A stretch of DNA of 64,000 nucleotides, from assembly GCF_024380015.1 (NCBI RefSeq), contig NZ_CP101509.1, forward strand, positions 372,001 through 436,000, in the 5' to 3' direction. The stretch is from Photobacterium atrarenae (lineage in GTDB: Bacteria; Pseudomonadota; Gammaproteobacteria; Enterobacterales; Vibrionaceae). Every line of letters starts with the position of its first letter. Within the stretch, counting starts at the first letter, position 1. Below the pieces are notes generated by a model. It was not told where the DNA came from. It did not search any database and was given only the letters and a program-made list of their open reading frames with translations. This document shows positions 10,019-64,000 of the stretch, in pieces. The translations under genes and the position numbers were made by a program.

Positions 10019-11524
10019 TTAATTCTGCAACCAGATGGTCTTGGTCTGCAGATACTGATCGAAGGCTTCCAACCCGTTGTCCCGGCCACCAAACCCGGAC
10101 TGCTTATAGCCGCCGAACGGTGTGGTGATATCCCCTTCGCTGAAGCAGTTGACCGAAACCGTCCCGGCTTTCAGCTGACGCGACACCCGGTGTGCCCGGC
10201 GGATGTCGGACGTATACAGGGATGCGGCCAGGCCGTAGTTGCCCGCGTTCGCCAGACGGATCGCTTCCGCTTCGCTGTCAAAGGTGGTGACCGCCAGAAT
10301 AGGCCCGAACACCTCTTCGCGGAACAGCGCCATCTCCGGCGTCACGTTGTCGAAAATGGTCGGTTCGACAAACAGTCCGGCGCCGAGATCCGGTGTCCCG
10401 CCACCGTGAACCAGCGTCGCGCCATCTGCCTGAGTGCGCTCAAGGTAACTGCGGACCTTATCAAAATGCGCCGGCTCAATCATCGGCCCGATGCTGACCT
10501 GTGGGTCCTGCGGATCCCCCAGTTGCCACTGGCTGAGACCGGCTTTGAGTTTCTCCAGCAGCGCATCTTTGATGCTGGTGTGAACCAGCAGGCGCGAGCC
10601 GCAGCTGCAGTTCTCACTCATGTTCCAGAACGCAGCGTTCAGCACGTCATCGACAATCTCATCCAGGCTGTAAACATCGTCAAAAATCACCTGCGGGCTT
10701 TTACCGCCGCACTCCAGCACGATCTCCTTGAGGTTACTCTGCGCCGAGTATTGCAGAAACAGTCGGCCGACTTCGGTGCTGCCGGTGAACGATACCACAT
10801 CAACATCCGGGTGCAGTCCCAGCGGCTGACCGACCGCTTCACCCAGCCCGGTCACCAGGGTCAGCGCCCCTTGCGGCACCCCGGCCTCGTGCGCCAGTTG
10901 CACCATACGATAGGCACTCAGGCTGGTCTGCTCGGCAGGTTTCACCACCACCGAGTTACCCGCCGCCAGCGCCGGGGCGACTTTCCAGGCGAACATCTGG
11001 GCCGGGAAATTCCAGGGCAGTACCGCACCGACGACGCCAATCGGCTCTTTGACAATCAGTCCCAGGGTATCGGTATTGGTCGGCGCAATGCGGCCGAACA
11101 CTTTATCGATCGCTTCGGTGTACCAGGTAAAGGTATGGATGGTTTCCGGAATGTCGGTATTCAGACATTCGGTGATCGGTTTGCCGGCATCGACACAATC
11201 CAGCGCCGCCAGCTCTTCCGCGTGTTCGCTCATCAGTGCCACCCAGCGCTGTAAAATCGCTTTGCGATCGCCCAGCGGCATCGCTGACCACTCGCCGGAT
11301 TCAAAACTGCTCCGGGCCGCCGTCACCGCGGCGTTTACTTGCGCCTCGCCTGCTGCTTGGATCCGGCCAATCACCTGACCGTCATACGGGCTGTACGTCT
11401 CCAGCGTGCCGATCTCCGCCAGCGCGGCCTCGGACAAGCCGGGGATCAAACATCCGGCAAACAACTCACCCTGCCTGGCAGCCTGAAAAACCTGCTCTTT
11501 CGCTTTTGTAAACGTTAACGTCAT
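10019..11524 (-). CDS. Aldehyde dehydrogenase, probable 2-ketoglutarate semialdehyde dehydrogenase
   Basis: NAD(P)-dependent aldehyde dehydrogenase of 501 residues. The fold is complete: cofactor loop PWNFPAQMFAWK, FTGSTEVG, catalytic Glu271 in LECGGKSP and catalytic Cys306 in NMSENCSCGSRLLV. By sequence it resembles PuuC-like enzymes. By context (deaminase 9 bases upstream, epimerase and D-hydroxyproline dehydrogenase in the same cluster) it should oxidise 2-ketoglutarate semialdehyde to 2-ketoglutarate, the last step of hydroxyproline breakdown. The specific substrate is inferred. An intrinsic terminator follows it, so it is the last gene of the minus-strand unit. Confidence 0.88.
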   Translation of the reverse strand: MTLTFTKAKEQVFQAARQGELFAGCLIPGLSEAALAEIGTLETYSPYDGQVIGRIQAAGEAQVNAAVTAARSSFESGEWSAMPLGDRKAILQRWVALMSEHAEELAALDCVDAGKPITECLNTDIPETIHTFTWYTEAIDKVFGRIAPTNTDTLGLIVKEPIGVVGAVLPWNFPAQMFAWKVAPALAAGNSVVVKPAEQTSLSAYRMVQLAHEAGVPQGALTLVTGLGEAVGQPLGLHPDVDVVSFTGSTEVGRLFLQYSAQSNLKEIVLECGGKSPQVIFDDVYSLDEIVDDVLNAAFWNMSENCSCGSRLLVHTSIKDALLEKLKAGLSQWQLGDPQDPQVSIGPMIEPAHFDKVRSYLERTQADGATLVHGGGTPDLGAGLFVEPTIFDNVTPEMALFREEVFGPILAVTTFDSEAEAIRLANAGNYGLAASLYTSDIRRAHRVSRQLKAGTVSVNCFSEGDITTPFGGYKQSGFGGRDNGLEAFDQYLQTKTIWLQN

Positions 11525-11533
11525 GATGATCTC

Positions 11534-12409
11534 CTATTGCAGTGCCGCATCCAGCAGTTGAAGGAAAGCGTCCTGATCGGTTTTGCAGATCGGTTGCAAT
11601 GGCGCGCGGATTGGGCCCACGTCCTGGCCGCGATGGATCAGCGCCAGCTTGGCCTTCTGGTTATAGTCCGCCGACTCCTGGTTCTGGATCACCGGCAGCA
11701 GCTTGGTCATGATGGCGCGCAAGGCGTTGTAATCACCGATGCGGGCTGACTCCAGCATCTGGACATGGGCTTCCGGCAGATAGTTCGCCGCCCCGCCGAT
11801 CCAGGCGCGAACGCCCCAGAACAGGTAATCAGCGCCCTGATCGTCCGAGCCGCACACCACGGCGAAATCATCCAGGTTCGCATTGATCAGTGACAGCGCT
11901 CGGGTGAAATCGCCGCTGCTCTCTTTGATCCCGACAATGTTCGGATCGCGGCTCAGCTCAATCACGCTGTCCACTTCAATTTCCACCCCGGAGCGGGCCG
12001 GGAAGTTGTACATGATGATCGGCAAGCCGACCTCACGGCTGACAGTTTGATAATGGGTGATAATTTCGCTTTGCTGCGGCAGGCAGTAAATCGGCGGTGC
12101 CAGCATCAGGCCCTGATAGCCCAGCGCTTTGGCCTGCTGCGCTTTGTTGATCGAGCCCTGAGTGTGGGTATCGTTCACCCCGGCAATCAGCTGCGCGCGA
12201 TCCCCGACATGCTCGGCGATAAACGTCAGGACCTGCGTCCGCTCTTCATCACTGAAGGCATAATACTCCCCGGTGGTGCCGCAGGCGACAATACCCGCCA
12301 CACCGGCTTCAATTTGCCAGTCCAGCAGCTTGCCCAGGGCTTCAAAATTGACTTGGTTGTCATCCGTAAACGGGGTAACGACAGGAACAAAAATACCGTC
12401 GAGTTTCAT
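11534..12409 (-). CDS. DapA-family protein, probable pyrroline-4-hydroxy-2-carboxylate deaminase
   Basis: A 291-residue class I aldolase of the dihydrodipicolinate synthase/N-acetylneuraminate lyase family. It keeps the carboxylate-binding GTTGE motif (44-48), the catalytic Tyr134 in IIMYNFP and the Schiff-base Lys162 in VGIKESSGD. In hydroxyproline clusters this family supplies the deaminase that turns Δ1-pyrroline-4-hydroxy-2-carboxylate into 2-ketoglutarate semialdehyde and ammonia. The four-enzyme set around it makes that role far more likely than lysine synthesis. It is nine bases upstream of the semialdehyde dehydrogenase, so the two consecutive steps are made together. Confidence 0.88.
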   Translation of the reverse strand: MKLDGIFVPVVTPFTDDNQVNFEALGKLLDWQIEAGVAGIVACGTTGEYYAFSDEERTQVLTFIAEHVGDRAQLIAGVNDTHTQGSINKAQQAKALGYQGLMLAPPIYCLPQQSEIITHYQTVSREVGLPIIMYNFPARSGVEIEVDSVIELSRDPNIVGIKESSGDFTRALSLINANLDDFAVVCGSDDQGADYLFWGVRAWIGGAANYLPEAHVQMLESARIGDYNALRAIMTKLLPVIQNQESADYNQKAKLALIHRGQDVGPIRAPLQPICKTDQDAFLQLLDAALQ

Positions 12410-12496: not shown

Positions 12497-13933
12497 TTAC
12501 GAGGACGCTTCGGCTTTCGTCAGTGAAGTTGATTCGTCCGCTACTGACTCTGTCCGCCAAATCGCAATGTTGGCGTAGCCGTAGAAGAGTGAAATCGCGA
12601 GCACCAGGAAGTGGTACCAGAGGAACGGCAGGTAACCGAGGGTCGACACGCCCAGGGTCGTTGCCATAAAGACGCCGCCGTCAGACCAGGGCACCATGGG
12701 TGTGGTGACTGTGCCGCCGGCTTCAGTGTTGCGGGACAGCACCCGGCGATCGATGCCCTGCTGGTCGTAGTTTTTCTCCGTAATCGTGCTGGCAGTGATC
12801 AGCGAGACATACGCCGCGCCGCCGAAGAAGTTGCCGAAGAAACCACCAAACAGGGTCGACAGCGTCAGGCGACCGGCATTGTTGGCCCAGGTCAGGAAAC
12901 GGTTACAAATCACCTGCAAGATCCCGATTTGCTCCATCAGACCACCGAGGCCGAGGGCGAACAGGATCAGGGCAATCACTTCCAGCATCGACAGAATGCC
13001 GCCGCGGTTGAGCAGGGTGTTGAGGAAGTCGACCTCAGATGACATCGCGTTACCGACATACACGGTGCGCACCGCATCCAGGGTCGGCATGCCCTGCGCG
13101 ACCACGGCACAGATAATGCCGAGCACAGCTCCGAGGGTGATCACCGGAATCGACGGCATCCGGCGTGACAGCAGCAGAATCACAACCACCGCAGGCAGCA
13201 GCAGCCAGGGGGAAATCGTAAAGTGTTGCTCCAGCGCCATCATCGCCGCATCCGCGCGGCTGGTATCAACGCTGCCGTCGACATAGAAAAAGCCCACCAG
13301 CAGGAACATCGTGAAGGCAATCACGCAGGCCGGTCCGCTGACATACATCATGGATTTGATGTGATCGATCAGATCCACCTTACACAGCGACGCCGTCATC
13401 ACCGTGGTATCCGACAGTGGCGACATCTTATCGCCGACATAAGCACCACTGATCACCGCACCGGCCACCAGCGGCAGCGGGATCCCAAAGCTGTGACCGA
13501 TCCCGATCATCGCGATCCCGGCCGTCCCTGCCGTACCGAACGAGGTACCGGTCGACAGCGAGGTCATGGCACAGATCACGAACGCTGCGGCCAGAAAGAT
13601 ATTCGGGCTCATCACGTTCAGGCCATAGTAAATGATACTGGGGACAATCCCGCCGGCGATCCACGAGCCAATCAGGGCACCGACGGTGATCAGGATCAGC
13701 ACCGCTTCCATCCCGTTATGGATCCCCTTGATCAACCCGGTCTGCATTGCATGATAGGTTTGCCCGAGCCGTAACCCGAGACCCATCACCAGGAACCAGG
13801 AGGCAAACAACGCCAGCTGGATCGGCAGCGACAGGACATTGATAAACAAAAACATAATGGCAATAAAGCCCGCCATCAGGCCGACCACTTCCATGCTGGT
13901 CGGTAACCGGACAGCACTCGAATTCGTGCTCAT
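12497..13933 (-). CDS. NhaC family Na+/H+ antiporter-like transporter
   Basis: A 478-residue polytopic inner-membrane protein with about 11-12 hydrophobic helices and NhaC-family marks (GTSFGTAGTAGIAMIGIG, SGAYVGDKMSPLSDTT). NhaC proteins are Na+/H+ antiporters, but relatives exchange organic acids or amino acids (for example malate/lactate). Its place inside a minus-strand set of hydroxyproline genes makes hydroxyproline or a breakdown product its likely substrate, since no other hydroxyproline carrier is encoded in the cluster. That substrate is inferred from context. Gaps with GC-rich hairpins separate it from the genes on both sides. Confidence 0.85.
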   Translation of the reverse strand: MSTNSSAVRLPTSMEVVGLMAGFIAIMFLFINVLSLPIQLALFASWFLVMGLGLRLGQTYHAMQTGLIKGIHNGMEAVLILITVGALIGSWIAGGIVPSIIYYGLNVMSPNIFLAAAFVICAMTSLSTGTSFGTAGTAGIAMIGIGHSFGIPLPLVAGAVISGAYVGDKMSPLSDTTVMTASLCKVDLIDHIKSMMYVSGPACVIAFTMFLLVGFFYVDGSVDTSRADAAMMALEQHFTISPWLLLPAVVVILLLSRRMPSIPVITLGAVLGIICAVVAQGMPTLDAVRTVYVGNAMSSEVDFLNTLLNRGGILSMLEVIALILFALGLGGLMEQIGILQVICNRFLTWANNAGRLTLSTLFGGFFGNFFGGAAYVSLITASTITEKNYDQQGIDRRVLSRNTEAGGTVTTPMVPWSDGGVFMATTLGVSTLGYLPFLWYHFLVLAISLFYGYANIAIWRTESVADESTSLTKAEASS

Positions 13934-14075: not shown

Positions 14076-15329
14076 TTAGTGAAAACGGCTCAGCCGGTAC
14101 GCACTGAGATCCAGTCCCGGTGTCTGCCGCCGGGCCAGTTCGGTGATCAGCTGCGCGGTGATCGCCGCTTGGGTGAGGCCGAGGTGATGATGACCCAGCG
14201 CCAGCATGACCCGCAGATCCGGCCCGACCGCATCAATAATGGGCAGCGAGTCCGGCAACGAAGGTCGGCAGCCCATCCAGGGGGTCGCTCCGGCAAGATC
14301 CAGCGGATGTTCAAACAGGGCATCGCCCAGATCGGCCAGCCGGTGGGCGCGCGCCATGTTGGCCGGGCGATCCAGCCCGGCAAATTCCACGGTCCCGGCC
14401 AGGCGAAGACCGCCTTGCATCGGCGTCATGATGAAACGCCGCTCGGCCGAGGAAACTGCTACCGGGATACGATCGGCTTCTTTGGGCAACATCAGGTGAT
14501 AACCGCGCTCGGTATCCAGCGGGATGTTGACGTCAGTGAGCTGATAGACCAGTGACTGACTGAACGCACCGGCGGCCACCAGCACCCGCGATGCCCGCAC
14601 CGGACCTTGGGTGGTGGTCAGCTCCACACCCTGATCAGTGACAAATCCGCCGGTCACTTCCTGCTGGTGATAGGTCATCCCAAGCTCCTGCGCGGCTGTC
14701 ATCAGCCGGGCCACCAGACGATGCGGGTCAACCACATGGCTGGTTTCGGGGAAATCCAGCGCGCCAATCACCCCTCCAGAAAGGCCGGGTACCTGCTGGT
14801 GCAACGCCTTCTTCGCCAGCGGGTTCACCGCGACCCCATTGGCTGCCAGGGTTTTGGCAAACTGGTGCAGCGCCTCGCCGGTTTTCGCCTGTTCGAATAC
14901 CAGCAATGAGCCCTGATGCCGCATTAAATTCTCGCCTTCCATGTCCGCCAGCAGCTGTTTCCAGGCGGCCAGACTGGCCTGGTTGAGCTGGATCAGCCCT
15001 GCCCGGCTACGCTGCTGCGCCTCGGCGCGCATATTGGCGACCAGCTTGAGCATCCAGGGCATCAGGCGGGGAAAGTAGCGCCAGTCGATCCGCAGCGGGC
15101 CCAGCGGATCCAATAACATGCTCGGGATCTGGGTCAGCATCTGCGGGTTGGCCAAAGGCATAATTTGCTCGGTGGCAATATGGCCCGCATTGCCGAACGA
15201 AGCCCCCTGCCCCGGCGCTTCCTTATCGAGCAGCACCACCCGGAATCCGGCTTGTTGCAGCCGGTATGCACAGGCGCAGCCGATAATGCCGGCGCCGATA
15301 ATCGCAATGTCGTGACCCATCTTTTCCAT
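14076..15329 (-). CDS. FAD-dependent D-amino acid dehydrogenase, probable D-hydroxyproline dehydrogenase
   Basis: A DadA-like flavoprotein of the DAO family, about 417 residues. The N-terminus has the dinucleotide-binding turn IAIIGAGIIGCACAYRL and an acidic end at VVLLDKEAPG; the second FAD motif, GCRPSLPDSLPIID, is near the C-terminus. In this cluster it should oxidise cis-4-hydroxy-D-proline to Δ1-pyrroline-4-hydroxy-2-carboxylate, passing electrons to the membrane. Reading on to 15401 would pass through the 22-bp operator, so that start is rejected. ATGs at 15341, 15329 and 15320 are all possible; 15329 was chosen for spacing from GATGAG. It is divergent from the epimerase gene and probably co-regulated with it. 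Confidence 0.88.
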   Translation of the reverse strand: MEKMGHDIAIIGAGIIGCACAYRLQQAGFRVVLLDKEAPGQGASFGNAGHIATEQIMPLANPQMLTQIPSMLLDPLGPLRIDWRYFPRLMPWMLKLVANMRAEAQQRSRAGLIQLNQASLAAWKQLLADMEGENLMRHQGSLLVFEQAKTGEALHQFAKTLAANGVAVNPLAKKALHQQVPGLSGGVIGALDFPETSHVVDPHRLVARLMTAAQELGMTYHQQEVTGGFVTDQGVELTTTQGPVRASRVLVAAGAFSQSLVYQLTDVNIPLDTERGYHLMLPKEADRIPVAVSSAERRFIMTPMQGGLRLAGTVEFAGLDRPANMARAHRLADLGDALFEHPLDLAGATPWMGCRPSLPDSLPIIDAVGPDLRVMLALGHHHLGLTQAAITAQLITELARRQTPGLDLSAYRLSRFH

Positions 15330-15360: not shown

Positions 15361-15382
15361 TGTATATTGTATACAATATACA
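15361..15382. promoter_or_regulatory. Perfect 22-bp palindrome, probable GntR-family operator
   Basis: TGTATATTGTA followed by its exact reverse complement TACAATATACA. The core TTGTATACAA fits the short AT-rich dyads bound by FCD-type GntR regulators, and a GntR gene lies 1.2 kb away in the same cluster. It sits 20-35 bases from the likely dehydrogenase starts and about 125 bases before the epimerase start, in position to control both. Its last 16 bases recur exactly at 62653-62668, in front of the OppA-like gene. Confidence 0.8.
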
Positions 15383-15507: not shown

Positions 15508-16509
15508 ATGCGTGAAGGAACTTTTTTTTGTATTGATGCGCACACCTGCGGCAATCCGGTACGACTGGTCGCCGGCGGTTACCCCAGCCTGAAAGGCAAT
15601 ACCATGAGTGAGAAGCGTCAGGACTTCCTGGAGCACCATGACTGGATCCGTCGTGCCCTGATGTTTGAACCGCGCGGCCATTCCATGATGTCCGGCTCGA
15701 TCATCTATCCGCCGTGCAGTGACAACGCCGATGCATCGATTCTGTTTATTGAAACCAGCGGCTGCCTGCCGATGTGCGGTCACGGCACCATCGGAACCGT
15801 CACCAGCGCCATTGAACACGGGGTCCTGCAACCGAAAACACCCGGACGCCTGATCCTCGATGTTCCGGCCGGGCAGATTCGGATCGACTATCAGCAAAAC
15901 GGCAATAAAGTCGAAAAAGTGCGGATTTATAACGTCGCCAGCTACCTCGCCCACCGCGACGTGGTGATTGACGTCGAAGGACTGGGTGAGCTGACCGTCG
16001 ATGTGTCATACGGCGGTAACTACTACACCATCATCGAACCACAGAAGAACTTCCCGGGTCTGGAGCACTTCAGTGCCGACCAGGTGCTGCACTATTCGCC
16101 GAAAGTACGGGAAGCCATTAATCAGGTGGTCGACTGTGTTCACCCGGACGATCCGACCGTGAGCGGTGCCAGCCATGTGCTCTGGACCGGCACCCCGACT
16201 CAGCCGGGTGCCCATGCGCGCAATGCGGTGTTCTACGGCGATCGCGCTATCGACCGCTCACCGTGCGGCACCGGGACCAGCGCCCGCATGGCCCAATGGG
16301 TGGCCCGCGGCCGCTTAGGCGTTGGCGAGGATTTCGTCCATGAAAGTATCATCGGCAGCCTGTTTGAGGGCCGAGTTGAATCCATGACCAAAGTGGGGGA
16401 TTATGATGCCATCATGCCGAGTGTTCAGGGCTGGGCACGCGTCACCGGCCACAATACCATCTGGGTCGACAGCGAAGATCCCTATGCGTATGGCTTTGAA
16501 GTAAAGTAA
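15508..16509 (+). CDS. 4-hydroxyproline epimerase (proline racemase family)
   Basis: Converts trans-4-hydroxy-L-proline to cis-4-hydroxy-D-proline, the first step of the pathway, in the cytoplasm and without cofactor. The 333-residue product has both catalytic thiols of the proline racemase family: Cys90 in PMCGHGTIG and Cys253 in SPCGTGTSA. Two Cys point to an epimerase/racemase, because the related trans-3-hydroxyproline dehydratases have lost one. Hydroxyproline is preferred over proline because of the neighbours. The RBS AAGGAGA lies just before the ATG. It is divergent from the D-hydroxyproline dehydrogenase across the 22-bp palindrome and is followed by the GntR gene. Confidence 0.92.
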   Translation: MREGTFFCIDAHTCGNPVRLVAGGYPSLKGNTMSEKRQDFLEHHDWIRRALMFEPRGHSMMSGSIIYPPCSDNADASILFIETSGCLPMCGHGTIGTVTSAIEHGVLQPKTPGRLILDVPAGQIRIDYQQNGNKVEKVRIYNVASYLAHRDVVIDVEGLGELTVDVSYGGNYYTIIEPQKNFPGLEHFSADQVLHYSPKVREAINQVVDCVHPDDPTVSGASHVLWTGTPTQPGAHARNAVFYGDRAIDRSPCGTGTSARMAQWVARGRLGVGEDFVHESIIGSLFEGRVESMTKVGDYDAIMPSVQGWARVTGHNTIWVDSEDPYAYGFEVK

Positions 16510-16566: not shown

Positions 16567-17235
16567 TTGCAGCCCAAAACACGTACCCAATATGTTGCCG
16601 ATGCGATCCGTGACAAAATCCTCCGGGGTGAAATCAAAGGCGGCGATCCGCTGCGTCAGGATGCACTGGCAAAAGAATTTGATGTAAGCCGAATCCCAGT
16701 ACGTGAGGCCCTGCTGACCCTGGAGTCAGAAGGACTCCTCGAGTTCCACGCCCATAAAGGCGCGTTTGCCACTGAGCTTTCGACCGATAAGATCCGCGAG
16801 CTGTTTGAGCTTCGGGTACTGCTGGAGTGCCACATGCTGGCCCACGCCATCCCCCTGATGTCAGACGCCGACTTAGATGCCGCCGAAGCCATGTTGCAGG
16901 AGTACGAAGAGATCTTAAATACCGGCAGCCGAGTCGATCACTGGAGCAATTACAACTTCGCGTTTCACAAAGCCCTGTATACCCCGGCCAACCGTCCGGA
17001 AACCATGCAGTTGATCACCCAGCTCAATACCCAGTCGGATCGCTATATCCGCATCCAACTGCTCCATACCGCCGGCGTCGCCAAAGCAGAAGCCGAACAC
17101 CGGGAGCTGCTAGTGCTGTGCCGGGAGCGCAACACCGAAGCGGCCTGCGATCTGCTCAAACGCCACATTGAAGTCTCCGCCGAGGATATCATCGGCCTGC
17201 TGGATCAGCAGAAACAAAACAGCCAAGAGAACTAA
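16567..17235 (+). CDS. GntR family transcriptional regulator (FCD type)
   Basis: A 222-residue regulator with an N-terminal winged HTH (about 5-70: YVADAIRDKILRGEIKGGDP, then EFDVSRIPVREALLTLESEG) and a C-terminal all-helical FCD ligand domain (about 80-215) with the metal-site type residues of that domain (FHKALY and a late HREL). The start is TTG at 16567, set by AGGAG seven bases before; no better ATG is available. It follows the epimerase and is the natural regulator of the hydroxyproline genes. The 22-bp palindrome at 15361 and its 16-base copy at 62653 are the likely binding sites. The ligand, hydroxyproline or an intermediate, is inferred. Confidence 0.9.
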   Translation: MQPKTRTQYVADAIRDKILRGEIKGGDPLRQDALAKEFDVSRIPVREALLTLESEGLLEFHAHKGAFATELSTDKIRELFELRVLLECHMLAHAIPLMSDADLDAAEAMLQEYEEILNTGSRVDHWSNYNFAFHKALYTPANRPETMQLITQLNTQSDRYIRIQLLHTAGVAKAEAEHRELLVLCRERNTEAACDLLKRHIEVSAEDIIGLLDQQKQNSQEN

Positions 17236-17945: not shown

Positions 17946-18355
17946 GTCGCGTACGAGGTGCTTGCACTCACGATACAACTCGACAAAACCCTAGCAAGTG
18001 CAGGTGATCAATTTCATACTTTTTTCATACTTCGATACTGAGAGCCTTAGTCTAATTTTAAAGAATAATATCAATAGCCAGAATGATTGACGATTGATAA
18101 GACAACACCATGAACAAAATGATACTGGGCGCTCCAGTAGACTGAAACTTTAAAAATAGCAAGCCTGAGAAATTGTCACTCATTTTTATACAAATGAAGG
18201 AGTTGAACATTCTGTTTTTTCAAGCAAAGTGGGAGCTGTAACCCAATGGCGGTAGCATGCTTGAATACGCACAACCAAAAGTTACACATTGATAAAACAA
18301 ACCGCATAAAACAACGCCATAAATTAAAAGCTGTATTTATAAGGCAAATAATAAA
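17946..18355 (+). other. Non-coding leader of the exopolysaccharide operon
   Basis: This 410-bp AT-rich region between the receiver-like gene and the initiating glycosyltransferase has no supportable gene. It contains a JUMPstart/ops element (described separately) about 100 bases before the first ATG, so the transcription start must lie upstream of 18230. No promoter boxes are strong enough to name. Confidence 0.6.
18230..18259 (+). promoter_or_regulatory. JUMPstart sequence with ops element (RfaH site)
   Basis: GGGAGCTGTAA at 18231-18241 followed by GGCGGTAGCATG at 18248-18259 matches the JUMPstart pattern (TAGCTGTAA, then the ops box GGCGGTAGCGTG) found in leaders of capsule, O-antigen and other long polysaccharide operons. 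In known systems the ops box pauses RNA polymerase and recruits RfaH, which suppresses Rho termination over the following genes. Its position about 100 bases before the first gene of a locus of some 20 kb fits that role. No rfaH gene is in the window. Confidence 0.85.
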
Positions 18356-40616: not shown

Positions 40617-40692
40617 TCTCCACGTCCATGCGCTGTTAGGGTTGTTAACAACATGTTACATCGCTTGCACATCAATGGACAGGAGAGCGCAC

Positions 40693-42072
40693 ATGAGAAA
40701 AACCATCCACCTCACACTATCATTAATCTTCACAACAGGAGCGCTGGCACTCAGTACCGCAGTACTGGCAGAGCAAACAGCACAAGACACGCAAACCGCA
40801 GCGTACCAGCCGTTGCCCGGCGAACGTAACTGCCTGTTCCGATACGGCCCGGTTTCTGCTGACCCTTACATTAATGTGGCCTACCCAGATGCAGGCGTGC
40901 AGTATTGGGGCGCTGCATTTACCGTCCCTGAAGGCGCCAGCCTATACTTGGAAGGGCAATTTCCACACTCCCGTTATATGTCGCTGATCAGCTACGACGA
41001 ATATGGCCGTCCCATCCAGTCTCTTGCGGATTACCTGATAGAGCCGACGCCCGGTCATACCAATCCGTTCCGCGAAGGTGCGAAGCGCAACAGCAACCAG
41101 CGTGATTACCAAGTTCGCATCACCAACACGCCGCCAGACAACGACTACACCAAGGGGATTAAACGAACCAATCAGACGGATAACCTGCTCCATGCGCCTC
41201 GCTCGCCTGCCAATCAGCAGGTCATGATTTACCGTATTTATGCTGAAGACAAAGGTCACGGCGTCACTGCAGGTGTGTCTTTACCCATTCCGGTAGTGAA
41301 AACCGCGCAAGGTGACACCCTGAAAGGCAAAGCAGCCTGTGATTACATTCAGGCCGAACAGCCACTGCGCGCAAAACTCAGCGCACTGGGCGTCAGCGTG
41401 GGTCAATATCGCGCCCTGATTAACCAGCCGGACAAGCCCGATACCCATCCTGCTACGAACCCTTCGACCTGGCACATTCAGCTTGATCGGGAAAGCCTGC
41501 TGGGGATCTATACCGGCAATATCAATCCAAACTCTCGCCGCAGTGAAGGCGGTTTCTATCCGAATCTGGATAACAACTATATTCGGACCGTCATTAACCG
41601 TAAGCACGGCCCGGTATATGTCCTGCGCGCCAAAGCGCCGACAACCCCCAAAACATACCAGGGTGATCTAACAATGGGCAGCGGCCAACTCCGGTACTGG
41701 TCGGTCTGCTCCAACAAGAGCCTGGCCGTTACCAAGGTCAATGACTGCCTGTATGATGAACACATCCCGGTAGATAACAATGGCTATTACACCATTGCTA
41801 TCAGCCGGGCCGCCGATCGCCCACGCAACGCCTATGCCCAATGTGGTGTCGGCTGGCTACCAATGGCAGATGATGGAGACGGCCTGTTCGACCAAGACGC
41901 CTCCATCGTCCAAATCCGCCATATGCTGGCCGATGCCAACTTCAGCCAGGCGATTCAGCAAATTGAGTTCGACAAAGATATCGCCAACGTCATGGGCGAG
42001 TTCTACCCCAATACCTTCTATACCACCACCAACAACTTCGAGTTGATGTTTCCCTGCCCACTTGAGGGCTAG
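40693..42072 (+). CDS. Secreted protein of unknown function
   Basis: A 459-residue protein I do not recognise by name. It has a Sec signal peptide (about 1-26, cleaved near AVLA-EQ), no lipobox and no further membrane helices, so it is probably periplasmic or exported. The sequence is rich in Tyr, Asn and Pro, with blocks such as YINVAYPDAGVQYWGAAFTV, FPHSRYMSLISYDEYGRPIQ and YRIYAEDKGHGVTAGVSLPI that read like a conserved folded domain, and four Cys in the second half that could pair. The ATG at 40693 has AGGAGAG before it. It lies between a divergent Crp-like regulator and a small outer-membrane-like protein. Confidence 0.7.
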   Translation: MRKTIHLTLSLIFTTGALALSTAVLAEQTAQDTQTAAYQPLPGERNCLFRYGPVSADPYINVAYPDAGVQYWGAAFTVPEGASLYLEGQFPHSRYMSLISYDEYGRPIQSLADYLIEPTPGHTNPFREGAKRNSNQRDYQVRITNTPPDNDYTKGIKRTNQTDNLLHAPRSPANQQVMIYRIYAEDKGHGVTAGVSLPIPVVKTAQGDTLKGKAACDYIQAEQPLRAKLSALGVSVGQYRALINQPDKPDTHPATNPSTWHIQLDRESLLGIYTGNINPNSRRSEGGFYPNLDNNYIRTVINRKHGPVYVLRAKAPTTPKTYQGDLTMGSGQLRYWSVCSNKSLAVTKVNDCLYDEHIPVDNNGYYTIAISRAADRPRNAYAQCGVGWLPMADDGDGLFDQDASIVQIRHMLADANFSQAIQQIEFDKDIANVMGEFYPNTFYTTTNNFELMFPCPLEG

Positions 42073-43167: not shown

Positions 43168-44106
43168 ATGATAGAACGCATCACGCAGCTATTTCCGCTG
43201 TGGGCGGTTGCCTTTTCACTGTGCGCTTTTTTGCAGCCCGCTTTATTTGTCGATCTGAAAAGCCAGATCGTGCCACTACTGACGATCATCATGCTCGCCA
43301 TGGGCGTGACCCTGTCACCGAAAGACTTTACCAACGTGATCAAACACAAAGTCGCCGTCGGTGTCGGCGTCGCCTTACAGTTTGGCATCATGCCACTGGC
43401 CGCCCTGGGGATCAGCCATTTGATGGGCCTGAGTACCGAGCTGACCGTTGGCATGGTGCTGGTCGGCAGTGTGGCCGGTGGCACCGCTTCCAACGTGATG
43501 GCGTTTCTGGCCAAAGGCGATGTCGCGTTGTCCATTTCCATGACCGCCATTTCCACTTTGATCGGTGTGGTGCTGACGCCCCTGCTGGTCGCACTCCTCG
43601 TCGGACAAAGCGTCGATGTCCCTACTGGCGCCATGCTGCTCAGCCTGGTCAAAATCGTCTTCGCCCCGGTCCTTCTCGGGCTGGTGATCAATACTCTGGC
43701 ACGCAAGCAAGTCGATAAAGTCCAGCCCCTGCTGCCACTGATCTCCATGGCTGCGATTGTGCTGATTATTGCGATTGTGGTCGCGCTCAATGCCGACAAC
43801 CTCAGCCGCATCGGACCACTGGTCGCCCTGGCGGTGATGCTACATAATGGGTTGGGTCTGCTGTGCGGGTATCTCGCCTGCCGGTTGCTGAAATTTGAAG
43901 AAAAAGTCTGCCGGACGATTGCGCTGGAGGTCGGGTTACAAAACTCCGGGCTGGCCACAGCGCTGGCGATGAAGTTCTTTACCCCGGCAGCCGCAGTGCC
44001 CGGCACCATCTTCTCGATCTGGCATAACATCTCCGGGTCGATCCTGGCCGGTTTCTGGTCCAAACGTCAGGGTTCAAAAGCTACGCCGCAAGATACCGTT
44101 GCCTGA
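43168..44106 (+). CDS. Bile acid:sodium symporter family transporter (BASS)
   Basis: A 312-residue membrane protein with nine to ten helices of the BASS family. Marks are AMGVTLSPKDF, the crossover helices GSVAGGTASNVMAFLAKGDV, the downstream EVGLQNSGLATALAM and the motif GTIFSIWHNISGS. Bacterial members move organic anions such as pantoate or keto acids with sodium and rarely bile acids; the substrate here is unknown. It is a single-gene unit, with a terminator hairpin before it and an intrinsic terminator right behind. Confidence 0.9.
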   Translation: MIERITQLFPLWAVAFSLCAFLQPALFVDLKSQIVPLLTIIMLAMGVTLSPKDFTNVIKHKVAVGVGVALQFGIMPLAALGISHLMGLSTELTVGMVLVGSVAGGTASNVMAFLAKGDVALSISMTAISTLIGVVLTPLLVALLVGQSVDVPTGAMLLSLVKIVFAPVLLGLVINTLARKQVDKVQPLLPLISMAAIVLIIAIVVALNADNLSRIGPLVALAVMLHNGLGLLCGYLACRLLKFEEKVCRTIALEVGLQNSGLATALAMKFFTPAAAVPGTIFSIWHNISGSILAGFWSKRQGSKATPQDTVA

Positions 44107-48141: not shown

Positions 48142-48348
48142 GGCATCAATCAACCTGCCTGAAACATATCATAAAAAATAAATAGAATTGCTATCGATCT
48201 TAAAAGGGAATTTCAGGTACTGATGACCGGTACGATAAATTTACTTGGCGTGCGAGGGATGAATCAGAAAAAGCAGAATGTTGCAGGAGAAAACGGGTAG
48301 AGGGGTAGGAAATAAGAAGTGAAACAAAAGCGACTAAACGGCGATAAT

Positions 48349-48373
48349 GTAAATGGCACAGCGTGCCATTTAC
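48349..48373 (-). terminator. Hairpin downstream of the cold-shock gene
   Basis: GTAAATGGCAC (48349-48359), loop AGC, GTGCCATTTAC (48363-48373): a perfect 11-bp stem, 15 bases past the cold-shock gene stop on the minus strand. The bases after it on that strand (ATTATCG) are only partly T-rich. The position strongly suggests a transcript end. Confidence 0.65.
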
Positions 48374-48388
48374 ATCGAATCTTTAGCC

Positions 48389-48601
48389 TTACAGGGCTAC
48401 AACGTTCGCAGCTTGAGGACCTTTTTGGCCTTGCTCAACGTCGAAAGAAACTTTTTGGCCTTCAGCAAGGGTTTTGAAGCCTTCTGAAACAATCGCACGG
48501 AAGTGAACGAATACGTCAGCGCCGCCGTTGTCTTGAGTAATGAAACCGAAACCTTTCTCTTCGTTAAACCACTTTACCAGACCTGTTGATTTAGTAGACA
48601 T
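48389..48601 (-). CDS. Cold-shock protein (CspA family)
   Basis: A 70-residue single cold-shock domain that binds single-stranded RNA and DNA and melts RNA structure in the cytoplasm. RNP1 (KGFGFI) and RNP2 (VFVHF) are intact, and the start [15 protein letters not shown] and end GPQAANVV are standard. AGGAAA lies before the ATG. About 300 bp (48602-48898) separate it from the MarR gene with no other gene in between. Many csp genes have long regulatory 5' untranslated regions, and the AT-rich sequence at 48602-48720 is the place for one here. The CspA/C/E/G subtype cannot be set by eye. Confidence 0.95.
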
Positions 48602-48898
48602 GTCGTTTTCCTAATCTATTGAATTAAAATTTGAATCGCATTCTCGCGATGCTCTTGATGCTTAAATGTGATGATGAATCTAAGGGAAACACTAAGGATA
48701 ACAACAGTTACGGAGAAATTCAGAGGGTTTACTTTGACTACTTTTCATTAATACGTCTGAGCTACAGAGCGAGATGAATCATACCTGAGTTTGGAGCAGA
48801 GTAAAGGTTTATTTTCATTTTATTTACTTGCTCCGAATAAGCTCAACCAAGGTAGATCCATGTCAAATCGAACTAAGTACATGAATAAGCCGTAAACG

Positions 48899-60440: not shown

Positions 60441-60527
60441 GTTAATAAGATGTAAACACACAATTGTGAGCGCTTTCTTGACACTATACATTTGTCATCA
60501 CTTCACACGGATGACACAGAGGATAGG
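60441..60527 (+). promoter_or_regulatory. Promoter region of the Xaa-Pro aminopeptidase gene (duplicated copy A)
   Basis: This segment aligns without gaps to 62619-62705 in front of the OppA-like gene; by hand count about 70 of 93 positions agree, counting into the first codons. Shared blocks are GTTAATAA, TGTAAA, CAATTG, ATACATTT, ACACGGATG and AGAGGATA. Possible -35 and -10 boxes, TTGTGA and TACATT, are 17 bases apart. The GntR-type palindrome seen in copy B is not intact here, only its right end ATACA. Confidence 0.7.
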
Positions 60528-62330
60528 ATGAGTCTTCAAGCAAGTACGCACTGCCCGGTTTCCCAGCGTCTCAGCCAACTACGCGATGCCATGTCGGCGT
60601 TGCAGCTCGACGCCTATATCGTCACCAACAACGATCCCCACAGCAGCGAATATTCAGCCGATCATTGGCTGGCCCGGCGCTGGATCACCGGTTTCACCGG
60701 CTCGGCGGGCGATGCGGTGATCACCCCTGACGGTGGTGGTTTGTGGACCGATGGCCGTTACTACATCCAGGCTGAAGAGCAGCTGCAAGGCAGCGGGCTT
60801 CCTCTGTTTAAAGCCAGACTGGCGGAAACCCCGTCGATCCCAGAATGGCTGGCGCAGACACTGCCGGCCAACAGCCGGGTCGGCGTCGACGGCCGCACCA
60901 TCAGTTATGCGTTTTACCAACAACTTCAGACCGCGTTTGCCGACAAAGCCATCGACATCGTGCTGGAGCACGACCTGATCGGCGGGATCTGGCACGATCG
61001 CCCGGTCCGGCCGACCACACCTGTGTTCAATCATCCGCTGCAATACGCCGGACAGACCACGGCACAAAAGCTGGCCCAAATCCGCCAGTACATGACCAGC
61101 GATCAGGTGGATGATCTGCTGATCTCAACGCTGGATGATGTGATGTGGACCCTCAACATTCGTGGCGGCGATACCCCATACTGTCCAATTTCTGAGGGCT
61201 ACCTGCTAATCAATGCCCAAACGGCTACGCTGTTTATCGATCTGCAGAAACTGCCGGAAGACGTACAAAGCAAACTCGAAGCGCAAGGCGTTAGTTGCCA
61301 GCCTTATGAACACATCAGCGACGTCCTGGGCAAGCTGGATGCCGGGCATCATTTCCGCAGTTGTGCCAGCCACAGCGATGCGCGCCTGATCTGCAGTCTG
61401 CCCGACGGCCTGACCGTGACACACCAGCGCAGTTATGTCACCGACATGAAAGCCAGCAAGAACGACACCGAGCTGGAAAACATGGAAGAGACGTTGCGGC
61501 TGGACGGGATCGCGATGGTAAAGTTCATGACCTGGCTGGAACAGCAGGTCCCCGGCGGCGACGTCACCGAACTCAGCGCCGAGCAGCAGCTACAGCATTT
61601 TCGCGCCTTAGCGCCGACCTACCTGGGTGACAGTTTCCGCACCATTGCCGGATTTGCCGAGCACGGCGCGAAAATGCACTACGCCGCCGATGAAGACAGC
61701 AACAAGCCGGTTGACGAGTCGAACTTCTTCCTGGTCGACTCCGGTGGCCAGTATCTGGGCGGCACCACGGACATCACCCGCACCTTCAGTTTCGGCACCC
61801 TGAGCCAGCAACAGCGCATCGACTATACCCTGGTGCTCAAAGCGGTGATCCGGCTCAGCCAGGCACGTTTTCTCAAAGGCTCTACCGGCTCCAACCTGGA
61901 CGTGCTGGCGCGCGGGGTGTTGTGGCAACAGGGTATCGACTACAAGTGCGGTACCGGCCATGGGGTCGGCATGTGCCTGAATGTCCACGAAGGGCCGCAG
62001 AACTTCTCGCAATCCCCGACCGAGGTCGAGCTGAAGCCGAATATGGTGATCACCAACGAGCCCGGCGTCTACCGCGAAGGCGAATACGGCGTGCGGATCG
62101 AAAACATCATGAAGGTGGTGAAGATTGAGCAGAACGAGTTTGGTGATTTTTACGGTTTCGACACCATCACCCTGGCGCCAATCGCCACCCACCCGCTGGA
62201 GCCGGCCTTGCTGGATGCTTCCGAGCGCCAGTGGCTCAATGACTACCATGCCAAAGTCTTTGACGCGCTCGAAGGGGATTTAACCCCGCAAGAGCGCGAC
62301 TGGCTGCAACGCGCAACAGCGGCGGTGTAA
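60528..62330 (+). CDS. Xaa-Pro aminopeptidase (M24 family, aminopeptidase P)
   Basis: A 600-residue metallopeptidase that removes the N-terminal residue from peptides with Pro at position 2. It has the long three-domain layout: two creatinase-like N-terminal domains (VSQRLSQLRDAMSALQLDAY; a second from about 165) and a C-terminal pita-bread domain. The five metal ligands are visible: Asp in FFLVDSGGQY, Asp in GGTTDITRTF, His in GTGHGVGMCLNVHEGP, Glu in ITNEPGVY and Glu in GVRIENIM. The start is the ATG at 60528, with AGAGGA before it. No signal peptide is seen, so it is cytoplasmic. It shares a duplicated promoter with the peptide-binding gene downstream. Confidence 0.93.
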   Translation: MSLQASTHCPVSQRLSQLRDAMSALQLDAYIVTNNDPHSSEYSADHWLARRWITGFTGSAGDAVITPDGGGLWTDGRYYIQAEEQLQGSGLPLFKARLAETPSIPEWLAQTLPANSRVGVDGRTISYAFYQQLQTAFADKAIDIVLEHDLIGGIWHDRPVRPTTPVFNHPLQYAGQTTAQKLAQIRQYMTSDQVDDLLISTLDDVMWTLNIRGGDTPYCPISEGYLLINAQTATLFIDLQKLPEDVQSKLEAQGVSCQPYEHISDVLGKLDAGHHFRSCASHSDARLICSLPDGLTVTHQRSYVTDMKASKNDTELENMEETLRLDGIAMVKFMTWLEQQVPGGDVTELSAEQQLQHFRALAPTYLGDSFRTIAGFAEHGAKMHYAADEDSNKPVDESNFFLVDSGGQYLGGTTDITRTFSFGTLSQQQRIDYTLVLKAVIRLSQARFLKGSTGSNLDVLARGVLWQQGIDYKCGTGHGVGMCLNVHEGPQNFSQSPTEVELKPNMVITNEPGVYREGEYGVRIENIMKVVKIEQNEFGDFYGFDTITLAPIATHPLEPALLDASERQWLNDYHAKVFDALEGDLTPQERDWLQRATAAV

Positions 62331-62518: not shown

Positions 62519-62618
62519 ATTCCGATGCCGGCCACAGGTCTCTCGCTGTCAATCTTCACTATTGCCTGCCGCCATGGTCTCACTTTTTGGCACCACCGGG
62601 ATCACTTTATGCCCCCTT

Positions 62619-62705
62619 GTTAATAAAGTGTAAAAATTCAATTGAGAGCATTTTGTATACAATATACATTTATTCTCAACTTACACGGATGTGAAAGAGG
62701 ATAAG
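62619..62705 (+). promoter_or_regulatory. Promoter of the OppA-like gene (duplicated copy B) with GntR-type operator
   Basis: A gapless, diverged duplicate of the aminopeptidase promoter at 60441-60527. Possible -35 TTGAGA (62642-62647) and -10 TACATT (62665-62670) have a 17-base spacer. Inside it, TTGTATACAATATACA at 62653-62668 is identical to the last 16 bases of the palindrome at 15361-15382 in the hydroxyproline cluster. A repressor bound there would cover the core promoter. Confidence 0.8.
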
Positions 62706-64000
62706 ATGAGTACAAGAAAAATCGCAAAACTCAGCATGTTCATTGCCAGTCTGATCACCCTGCCTGCCGCAGCGATGCCTTACCCGGCAGGCACCCAGCT
62801 GGCAGAAAAACAGGAAATTACCCTCAACAACGGTGCCGAAGTCACCTCGATTGATCCGGCCAAACAAGCAGCAGAGCCGGCATTCAATCTGGGTCGGGAT
62901 CTGTTTGAAGGCCTAACCACCCAGGACAAGCAAGGCCAAACCGTGCCGGGGGTTGCAACCCACTGGGACGTCAATGCAAACAACACCGTCTATACCTTCC
63001 ACCTGCGGGACTCGAAATGGTCCAACGGCGAGCCTGTGACAGCCCACGACTTTGTCTACAGCTGGCAACGCCTGCTCGACCCGAAAACTGCCTCGCCTTA
63101 TGCCTGGTTCGCCGCAATTCCCGGCATCAAGAACGCCGATGCAATTATGAATGGTGAGGCCGCGCCGAGCAGTCTGGGTGTCAGAGCCCTGGATGATCAC
63201 ACCTTCGAAGTGACGCTGGAAGAACCCATCCCGTTTTTCATCAAGCTCCTCAGCCACCCGGTCATGGCGCCGGTACACCAGGCCACCGTCGAACAATACG
63301 GCAGCGCCTGGACCCAACCTGAACACATTGTGACCAACGGCGCCTTTACCGTCTCGGCGTGGAAGGTCAATGAGAAAATGGTGATGGTCAAAAACCCCCA
63401 TTACTGGAATGCTGATGCCGTGGTGCTCAATCAAATCACTTGGTTGCCAATCGGTGATGCCAACGTCTCGCTGAACCGCTTCCTGGCCGGTGAACTCGAT
63501 GAAGCGCTCTCGATCCCGGCAGCGCAGAAAAACCGGATCCTCAAACAGTTTCCGACCAAAGTAGCGACCACCAGCGCGTCGCTGGGCTCCATCTTTTACT
63601 ACCTCAATACCCAGTCCGGTCCGACCCAGGATCTGCGGGTGCGCCAGGCGCTTTCCTATGCCATCGACCGCAATATTATGACCCAGGCAATCGTCAAGAA
63701 CGGCGGTGTACCCATGTATACCCTGGTGCCGCCGCAAACCGACAACTTTGACAGCTTCACCCCGGCCTACGCGACCTGGACTCAGCAAGTCCGCAACCAA
63801 AAAGCCAAAGCCCTGCTGGCTGAGGCCGGTTACAGCAAGGCTAACCCGCTCAAGCTGACCTTCACCGTGCCGACCTTCTCCCAGGACGTCAAAATGGCAA
63901 CGGCCATGGCGGGGATGTGGAAAAGCGTGCTGGGCGCCCAGGTGGAAATCAAACAGCTGGAGCCCAAGGTGTTCTACGCCCTGAAAGATCCGGGCAATAT
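62706..64000 (+). CDS. Oligopeptide ABC transporter substrate-binding protein, OppA-like (partial)
   Basis: The first 431 or so residues of a periplasmic peptide-binding protein; the frame is open at the window edge (OppA is about 540). It has a Sec signal peptide (about 1-23, cleaved near LPAAA-MP). Cluster 5 binding-protein marks follow: NNGAEVTSIDPAKQAAEPAF, LFEGLTTQDKQGQTVPGVAT, FHLRDSKWSNGEPVTAHDFV, YSWQRLLDPKTASPYAW and LRVRQALSYAIDRNIM. It captures oligopeptides for import by permease and ATPase subunits probably encoded beyond the window. The ATG at 62706 is preceded by AGAGGATA. The promoter contains the hydroxyproline-cluster operator. Confidence 0.93.
   Translation, partial: MSTRKIAKLSMFIASLITLPAAAMPYPAGTQLAEKQEITLNNGAEVTSIDPAKQAAEPAFNLGRDLFEGLTTQDKQGQTVPGVATHWDVNANNTVYTFHLRDSKWSNGEPVTAHDFVYSWQRLLDPKTASPYAWFAAIPGIKNADAIMNGEAAPSSLGVRALDDHTFEVTLEEPIPFFIKLLSHPVMAPVHQATVEQYGSAWTQPEHIVTNGAFTVSAWKVNEKMVMVKNPHYWNADAVVLNQITWLPIGDANVSLNRFLAGELDEALSIPAAQKNRILKQFPTKVATTSASLGSIFYYLNTQSGPTQDLRVRQALSYAIDRNIMTQAIVKNGGVPMYTLVPPQTDNFDSFTPAYATWTQQVRNQKAKALLAEAGYSKANPLKLTFTVPTFSQDVKMATAMAGMWKSVLGAQVEIKQLEPKVFYALKDPGN

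Follow-up and report, generated by a model that had tools for sequence, protein, structure and literature searches.

Two sites of the same sequence, one between the divergent hydroxyproline genes and the other in the promoter of the oligopeptide transport operon oppABCDF, are very probably operators of one HypR-type GntR/FCD regulator (gene at 16567-17235), which would jointly control hydroxyproline catabolism and peptide import in Photobacterium atrarenae. We give this reading a probability of nearly nine in ten (0.88). A previous sequence-only reading of the window, i.e. the whole analyzed stretch of 64,000 nucleotides, had tied peptide import to hydroxyproline breakdown, and this tie is supported by the conservation of the oppA site across genera and by the occurrence of this opp operon exclusively together with the epimerase gene among 296 Vibrionaceae genomes.

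The first site is a predicted HypR operator, a perfect dyad of 22 bp (TGTATATTGTATACAATATACA, 15361-15382) that is identical to its own reverse complement. It stands, as had been claimed from the sequence, between the divergent epimerase and dehydrogenase genes. The dehydrogenase start (15317, minus strand) is 43 bp away and the epimerase start (15508) 125 bp. The second claim, that the last 16 bases of the dyad recur exactly in the promoter of an OppA-like gene, was likewise borne out: the 16-base copy (TTGTATACAATATACA) occupies 62653-62668 on the plus strand, 37 bp from the oppA start (62706), and belongs to an imperfect dyad (62647-62668) with 3 mismatches to the whole 22-mer. The core TTGT-AT-ACAA (TTGTATACAA) represents a palindromic operator of the FadR subfamily with GT and AC 2 nt apart; Suvorova et al. 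2015 (PMC4494728) give the same spacing for HypR.

Across the genome of 5,406,651 bases, the exact 16-mer is found at the hyp and oppA loci only; the 10-base core, searched by itself, has 6 occurrences. Permitting up to 2 mismatches to the 16-mer added one place on contig C1; with its 2 mismatches it was rejected as a third operator, since a single match is the background level, the reversed control pattern also giving one genome match at this tolerance. The hyp and oppA loci stand alone above the genome background. The sequence-only reading had named many unrelated copies of the dyad in the genome as the outcome that would speak against it, and in the genome-wide scan these two loci alone exceeded the background. 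It had also considered a chance match very unlikely, which agrees with the uniqueness of the 16-mer and with the outcome of 100 dinucleotide-preserving shuffles of the window, none of which matched the 22-mer with 3 or fewer mismatches. One could still regard the 16-base identity as accidental, or as the resemblance of two A/T-rich promoters without regulatory meaning, given that the core is A/T-rich and overlaps the -10 hexamer; however, the shuffles, the genome uniqueness and the conservation of the site in 25 of 26 opp loci (see below) contradict this view, which can hardly be maintained.

The genes around the first site form a hydroxyproline cluster adjoined by a GntR-family regulator gene. 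Among the HypR core set hypE/O/D/H, the epimerase exceeds its curated cut-off, and the other three are placed by family and position. The 4-hydroxyproline epimerase gene hypE (15508-16509, plus strand) reached 605.9 bits against a cut-off of 376 with NF010578. On the minus strand, the gene at 14076-15317 encodes a FAD-dependent D-amino acid, probably D-hydroxyproline, dehydrogenase, which scored below the equivalog and subfamily cut-offs; its start was set to 15317 and not to 15401, because in Photobacterium ganghwense (G019) the longer frame lacks an ATG ahead of the operator. It is followed on the same strand by genes for an NhaC-family antiporter (12497-13933; TIGR00931, 499.7 bits, cut-off 370), for a DapA-family protein (11534-12409) and for an aldehyde dehydrogenase assigned to its Pfam family (10019-11524), which reached no listed equivalog cut-off and, judged from the cluster, probably acts on 2-oxoglutarate semialdehyde. 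The DapA-family protein passed the cut-off of the dapA model (TIGR00674, 211.5 bits, cut-off 206.15) and none for a pathway enzyme, therefore its reading as the pathway deaminase is based on the position in the cluster. The HypR-like regulator with GntR and FCD domains (16567-17235, plus strand, TTG start) is encoded 57 bp behind hypE. It gave three NCBIfam matches, all below cut-off and none of them to a HypR model. All 21 sequences of an alignment that includes the window's and excludes matches shorter than 170 residues share its helix-turn-helix sequence SRIP[VL]REA. No promoter-like hexamer pair was found around the hyp dyad.

At the second site, oppA encodes an oligopeptide-binding protein (62706-64000 in the window, continuing to 64316, plus strand) and is followed by oppB, oppC, oppD and oppF (locus L005), so that the order oppABCDF is complete in an operon running past the window end. 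OppB exceeded its equivalog cut-off, OppA, OppC and OppD remained below theirs, and OppF exceeded the cut-off of a general dipeptide-transporter subfamily only. Downstream of the operon, a gene for a group II intron reverse transcriptase/maturase was noticed (L005:8370-9683). A sigma-70 promoter of oppA is predicted at 62642-62670 on the plus strand (TTGAGA, 17-nt spacer, TACATT); the scanned region gave 2 promoter-like sites against 0.6 expected. The operator occupies most of the spacer between the -35 and -10 hexamers and overlaps the second hexamer, a location that argues for repression by occlusion. The TTG at the -35 offset is kept in 25 of the 26 aligned opp promoters, counted with L070 and without L068. 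Upstream of oppA, the window contains the gene for an Xaa-Pro aminopeptidase-like M24 protein (60492-62330, plus strand). Among PDB entries the protein is most similar to Xaa-Pro aminopeptidase 1 (E 1.1e-106), and it did not reach the NCBIfam equivalog cut-offs. A terminator-like stem separates this gene from oppA, and a search allowing 3 mismatches gave no separate operator match for it. In the relatives, an Xaa-Pro aminopeptidase gene is located directly behind oppF in 27 of 27 loci; in P. ganghwense its match begins 14 bp after the oppF match.

The scan of named genomes with OppB identified 30 loci, 27 of them with OppB of at least 84% identity, and these close loci span Photobacterium, Vibrio, Aliivibrio, Hahella and Osedax symbionts. 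A site with at most 2 of 16 mismatches lies no more than 200 bp ahead of oppA in 25 of the 26 close loci that have a readable oppA start (window included), being exact in 4, with one mismatch in 13 and with two in 8; the 26th locus, from the Osedax symbiont Rs1, has a site with 3 mismatches. This count includes L068; it omits L070, where the reading frame is broken, and L064, where the contig stops within oppA. L040 and L047 represent one locus and were counted once, as was P. ganghwense. Random 200-bp windows contained a site at up to 2 mismatches in 59 of 5421 cases, drawn from all examined loci including the other operators, L040 and two distant opp loci. Full-length OppA matches of the close relatives are 70-81% identical, and the operator is conserved across the opp loci while flanking bases vary. 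Among the distant opp loci, L071 (OppB 53%) and L073 (OppB 35%) have no site, with best matches at 6 and 7 mismatches, and OppA was not found in L072. At L061:2583-3640 of the Osedax symbiont Rs2, an operator-like sequence lies upstream of oppA, accompanied by a divergently oriented GntR gene whose product shares 39% identity with HypR.

The same motif was also detected at other promoters. In the 27 loci of the relatives, 57 sites with at most 4 of 20 mismatches were obtained, none inside a probed gene. They precede hypE in 10 of 10 loci holding the gene start, hypR in 14 of 17, oppA in 21 of 26 and a gene for an M9 collagenase in 1 of 9, while 10 of the 57 have no probed gene start within 300 bp. 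In the single locus examined in this respect (L062), such an unassigned site precedes an ornithine cyclodeaminase gene, a predicted HypR target in Vibrio parahaemolyticus (Leyn et al. 2016, PMC5343134). P. ganghwense has the 16-mer before oppA and a third site 94 bp before a gene for a secreted-type M9 collagenase; in the genome of the window no M9 collagenase exceeded the cut-off, with one weak match of 21.3 bits against 26. The distribution of the motif marks a putative regulon.

The regulator acting at oppA might be another one. The genome contains eight FCD-domain regulators, therefore one of the others could read the operator, and the shared sequence would then reflect family resemblance instead of shared control. 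The FadR subfamily as a whole shares the TKGT/ACMA boxes (PMC4494728), three Hahella loci lack a HypR match in the 3-10 kb fetched upstream, and the Rs2 symbiont has its own GntR gene beside opp. However, the identity extends over 16 genome-unique bases and thus past the family boxes, the motif recurs before hypR itself, the Hahella genomes carry a hypE-hypR pair elsewhere, and in the 296 genomes opp is found only with hypE. Taken together, control by a different FCD/GntR protein appears improbable, and the HypR-type regulator is retained as the probable common reader of both sites.

A further element was found upstream of the oppA promoter, where the direct repeat TGTTA-N6-TGTAA (62618-62633, plus strand) is a possible site for a second regulator. 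In 22 of 26 opp promoters, counted as for the TTG, the repeat TGTTA-N6-TGTTA lies 23-24 bp upstream of the 16-mer with at most 2 of 10 mismatches (none in 18 promoters, one in 3 and two in 1), and mononucleotide shuffles gave up to 1 mismatch in 0.27% and up to 2 in 4.4%. It also adjoins the hypE-dehydrogenase sites of relatives, closer than at oppA, in 10 of 10 cases with 0-1 mismatches. These numbers, together with the helix-turn-helix gene orf287 that is present in 19 of the 27 opp loci of relatives, would fit an activating role of HypR at oppA or its cooperation with a second regulator at the repeat, i.e. control beyond simple derepression. On the other hand, a dimer in the -35/-10 spacer should block the polymerase, the window's own hyp dyad has no repeat beside it (best 3 mismatches), repeat and orf287 do not track each other, and the repeat conservation is in part due to common descent of the Vibrio promoters. 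We consider activation or such additional control unlikely, with about one chance in four, and regard repression by HypR as the more probable account of the oppA site. Co-occurrence did not support orf287 as the reader of the repeat: three Hahella loci have the gene and no repeat, and P. ganghwense and V. diabolicus have the repeat and no such gene in the fetched stretch. In the window's genome, the helix-turn-helix-like protein of those 19 loci is encoded downstream of oppF (L005:7512-8303); the protein search gave 12 homologues, and the copy of the window's genome has no Pfam match over cut-off. A second exact match to TGTTA-N6-TGTWA is present in the window at 40643-40658, at the start of the 40642-42072 reading frame.

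The distribution of the genes was analyzed at two levels. Among 52 Photobacterium genomes, the own one included, the epimerase was found in 3 (E <=1e-100) and this opp in 2 (E <=1e-110), both of which belong to the 3 epimerase carriers. The exact 22-bp dyad is present in all 3 carriers (the window genome, G019 and G032); in G032, HypR is 98% identical, yet this opp was not found. In an even sample of 296 Vibrionaceae genomes from a larger group, this opp was detected in 25 and the epimerase in 29, and all 25 are among the 29 (hypergeometric 2e-32, a value inflated by ignoring kinship). Here opp was scored on 7 first-look candidates per genome, therefore absences among the 296 are less sure than in the Photobacterium search, and this applies also to G225, G229 and G286, where hypE was recorded without this opp. 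Outside the family, each of the three Hahella genomes that carry this opp has, next to each other on one contig, hypE (77-78%) and a homologue of hypR (56-58%). In three genomes of Osedax symbionts, the search for the epimerase and for HypR gave distant relatives only (30-35% and 37-40%), therefore the support for a tie to hydroxyproline comes from the other lineages.

The sequence-only reading had emphasized that the two sites lie some 47 kb apart. OppB and the epimerase are separated by 47-49 kb in two Photobacterium genomes only and by 6-32 kb in 21 other genomes of the family with both on one contig, while 2 of the 25 genomes have them on different contigs. Because of the shorter distances in those 21 genomes, the 47-kb separation looks secondary and a local matter. 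In G032, the regulator gene is directly followed by a homologue of the window gene at 43168-44106, so the stretch of the window from 17 to 43 kb is absent at that place. This stretch harbors a polysaccharide-type gene cluster (17454-43000) with a JUMPstart element at 18222-18259. Further downstream, a cspA thermoregulator RNA was recognized on the minus strand at 48346-48773 (Rfam RF01766, 118.9 bits).

From the arrangement of sites and genes we infer the following sequence of events. Without hydroxyproline or a derivative of it, a HypR dimer would occupy the dyad between hypE and the dehydrogenase gene as well as the -35/-10 spacer of oppA, and would thereby keep the catabolic genes, probably hypR itself, and oppABCDF switched off. 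With the arrival of collagen-type peptides, hydroxyproline released from them would clear both operators, Opp could import hydroxyproline-containing peptides, the neighboring Xaa-Pro aminopeptidase might help to open them, and the hyp enzymes would convert hydroxyproline to 2-oxoglutarate. If true, one regulator would govern a food chain of peptide import and hydroxyproline oxidation widely, and of collagen cutting in one species, with a proline-specific peptidase standing beside the regulated chain. This proposes a substrate for an opp system that would otherwise be called a general oligopeptide importer from its sequence alone, and it singles out those Vibrionaceae and Hahella that seem equipped to use collagen peptides. 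More tentatively, and with somewhat less than even odds, opp might be a dedicated importer of hydroxyproline- or proline-rich collagen peptides under HypR-type control, with a second input at the repeat in Vibrionaceae; this opp system may then have passed as a module for collagen use among Vibrionaceae, Hahella and Osedax symbionts, and in the last it would perhaps be under another GntR protein.

Support from published expression data was also considered. In a transcriptome study of V. parahaemolyticus (PMC5460551), genes for a hydroxyproline epimerase and for an ornithine cyclodeaminase (VpaChn25_1332 and _1335) were down-regulated in the double cspAD mutant and five oligopeptide ABC transporter genes (VpaChn25_1344 to _1348) in the cspA mutant. 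The numbering suggests that these genes are neighbors; as evidence for co-regulation the data were set aside, because the two gene sets come from different mutants and from pathway-filtered tables. Among titles and abstract openings, no paper joins HypR to an oppABCDF operon, and RegPrecise or supplements may already list opp.

Compared with known systems, the closest counterpart is the HypR regulon of Proteobacteria (Leyn et al. 2016, PMC5343134), which shares with the present case a GntR-family regulator next to hydroxyproline genes and comprises a core of hypE/O/D/H, autoregulation and lineage-specific members such as prolyl peptidases, collagenases and the di/tripeptide permease PdtP in Alteromonadales and Aeromonas. 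Its section 11 names no oligopeptide ABC transporter, and the only "oligopeptide" of its main text concerns TyrR; the importer here is oppABCDF, 47 kb from the hyp genes. In Streptomyces coelicolor, HypR belongs to the FadR subfamily and represses hydroxyproline genes as well as a gene for an M9 collagenase (PMC6608401); however, its operator differs (CTNTGC(A/C)ATGTCAC), and the main text contains no word starting with "peptide". The collagen-utilization cluster of Colwellia BB5 (PMC7883544) unites M9 collagenase, prolyl peptidases, transporters and hydroxyproline catabolism, but it uses an MFS transporter and a TonB receptor, and its main text names PutR and not HypR. Since published HypR regulons already include peptidases, collagenases and a di/tripeptide permease, the predicted link between HypR and opp extends, with good support, a gene circuit that is already known and does not represent a new type of system.
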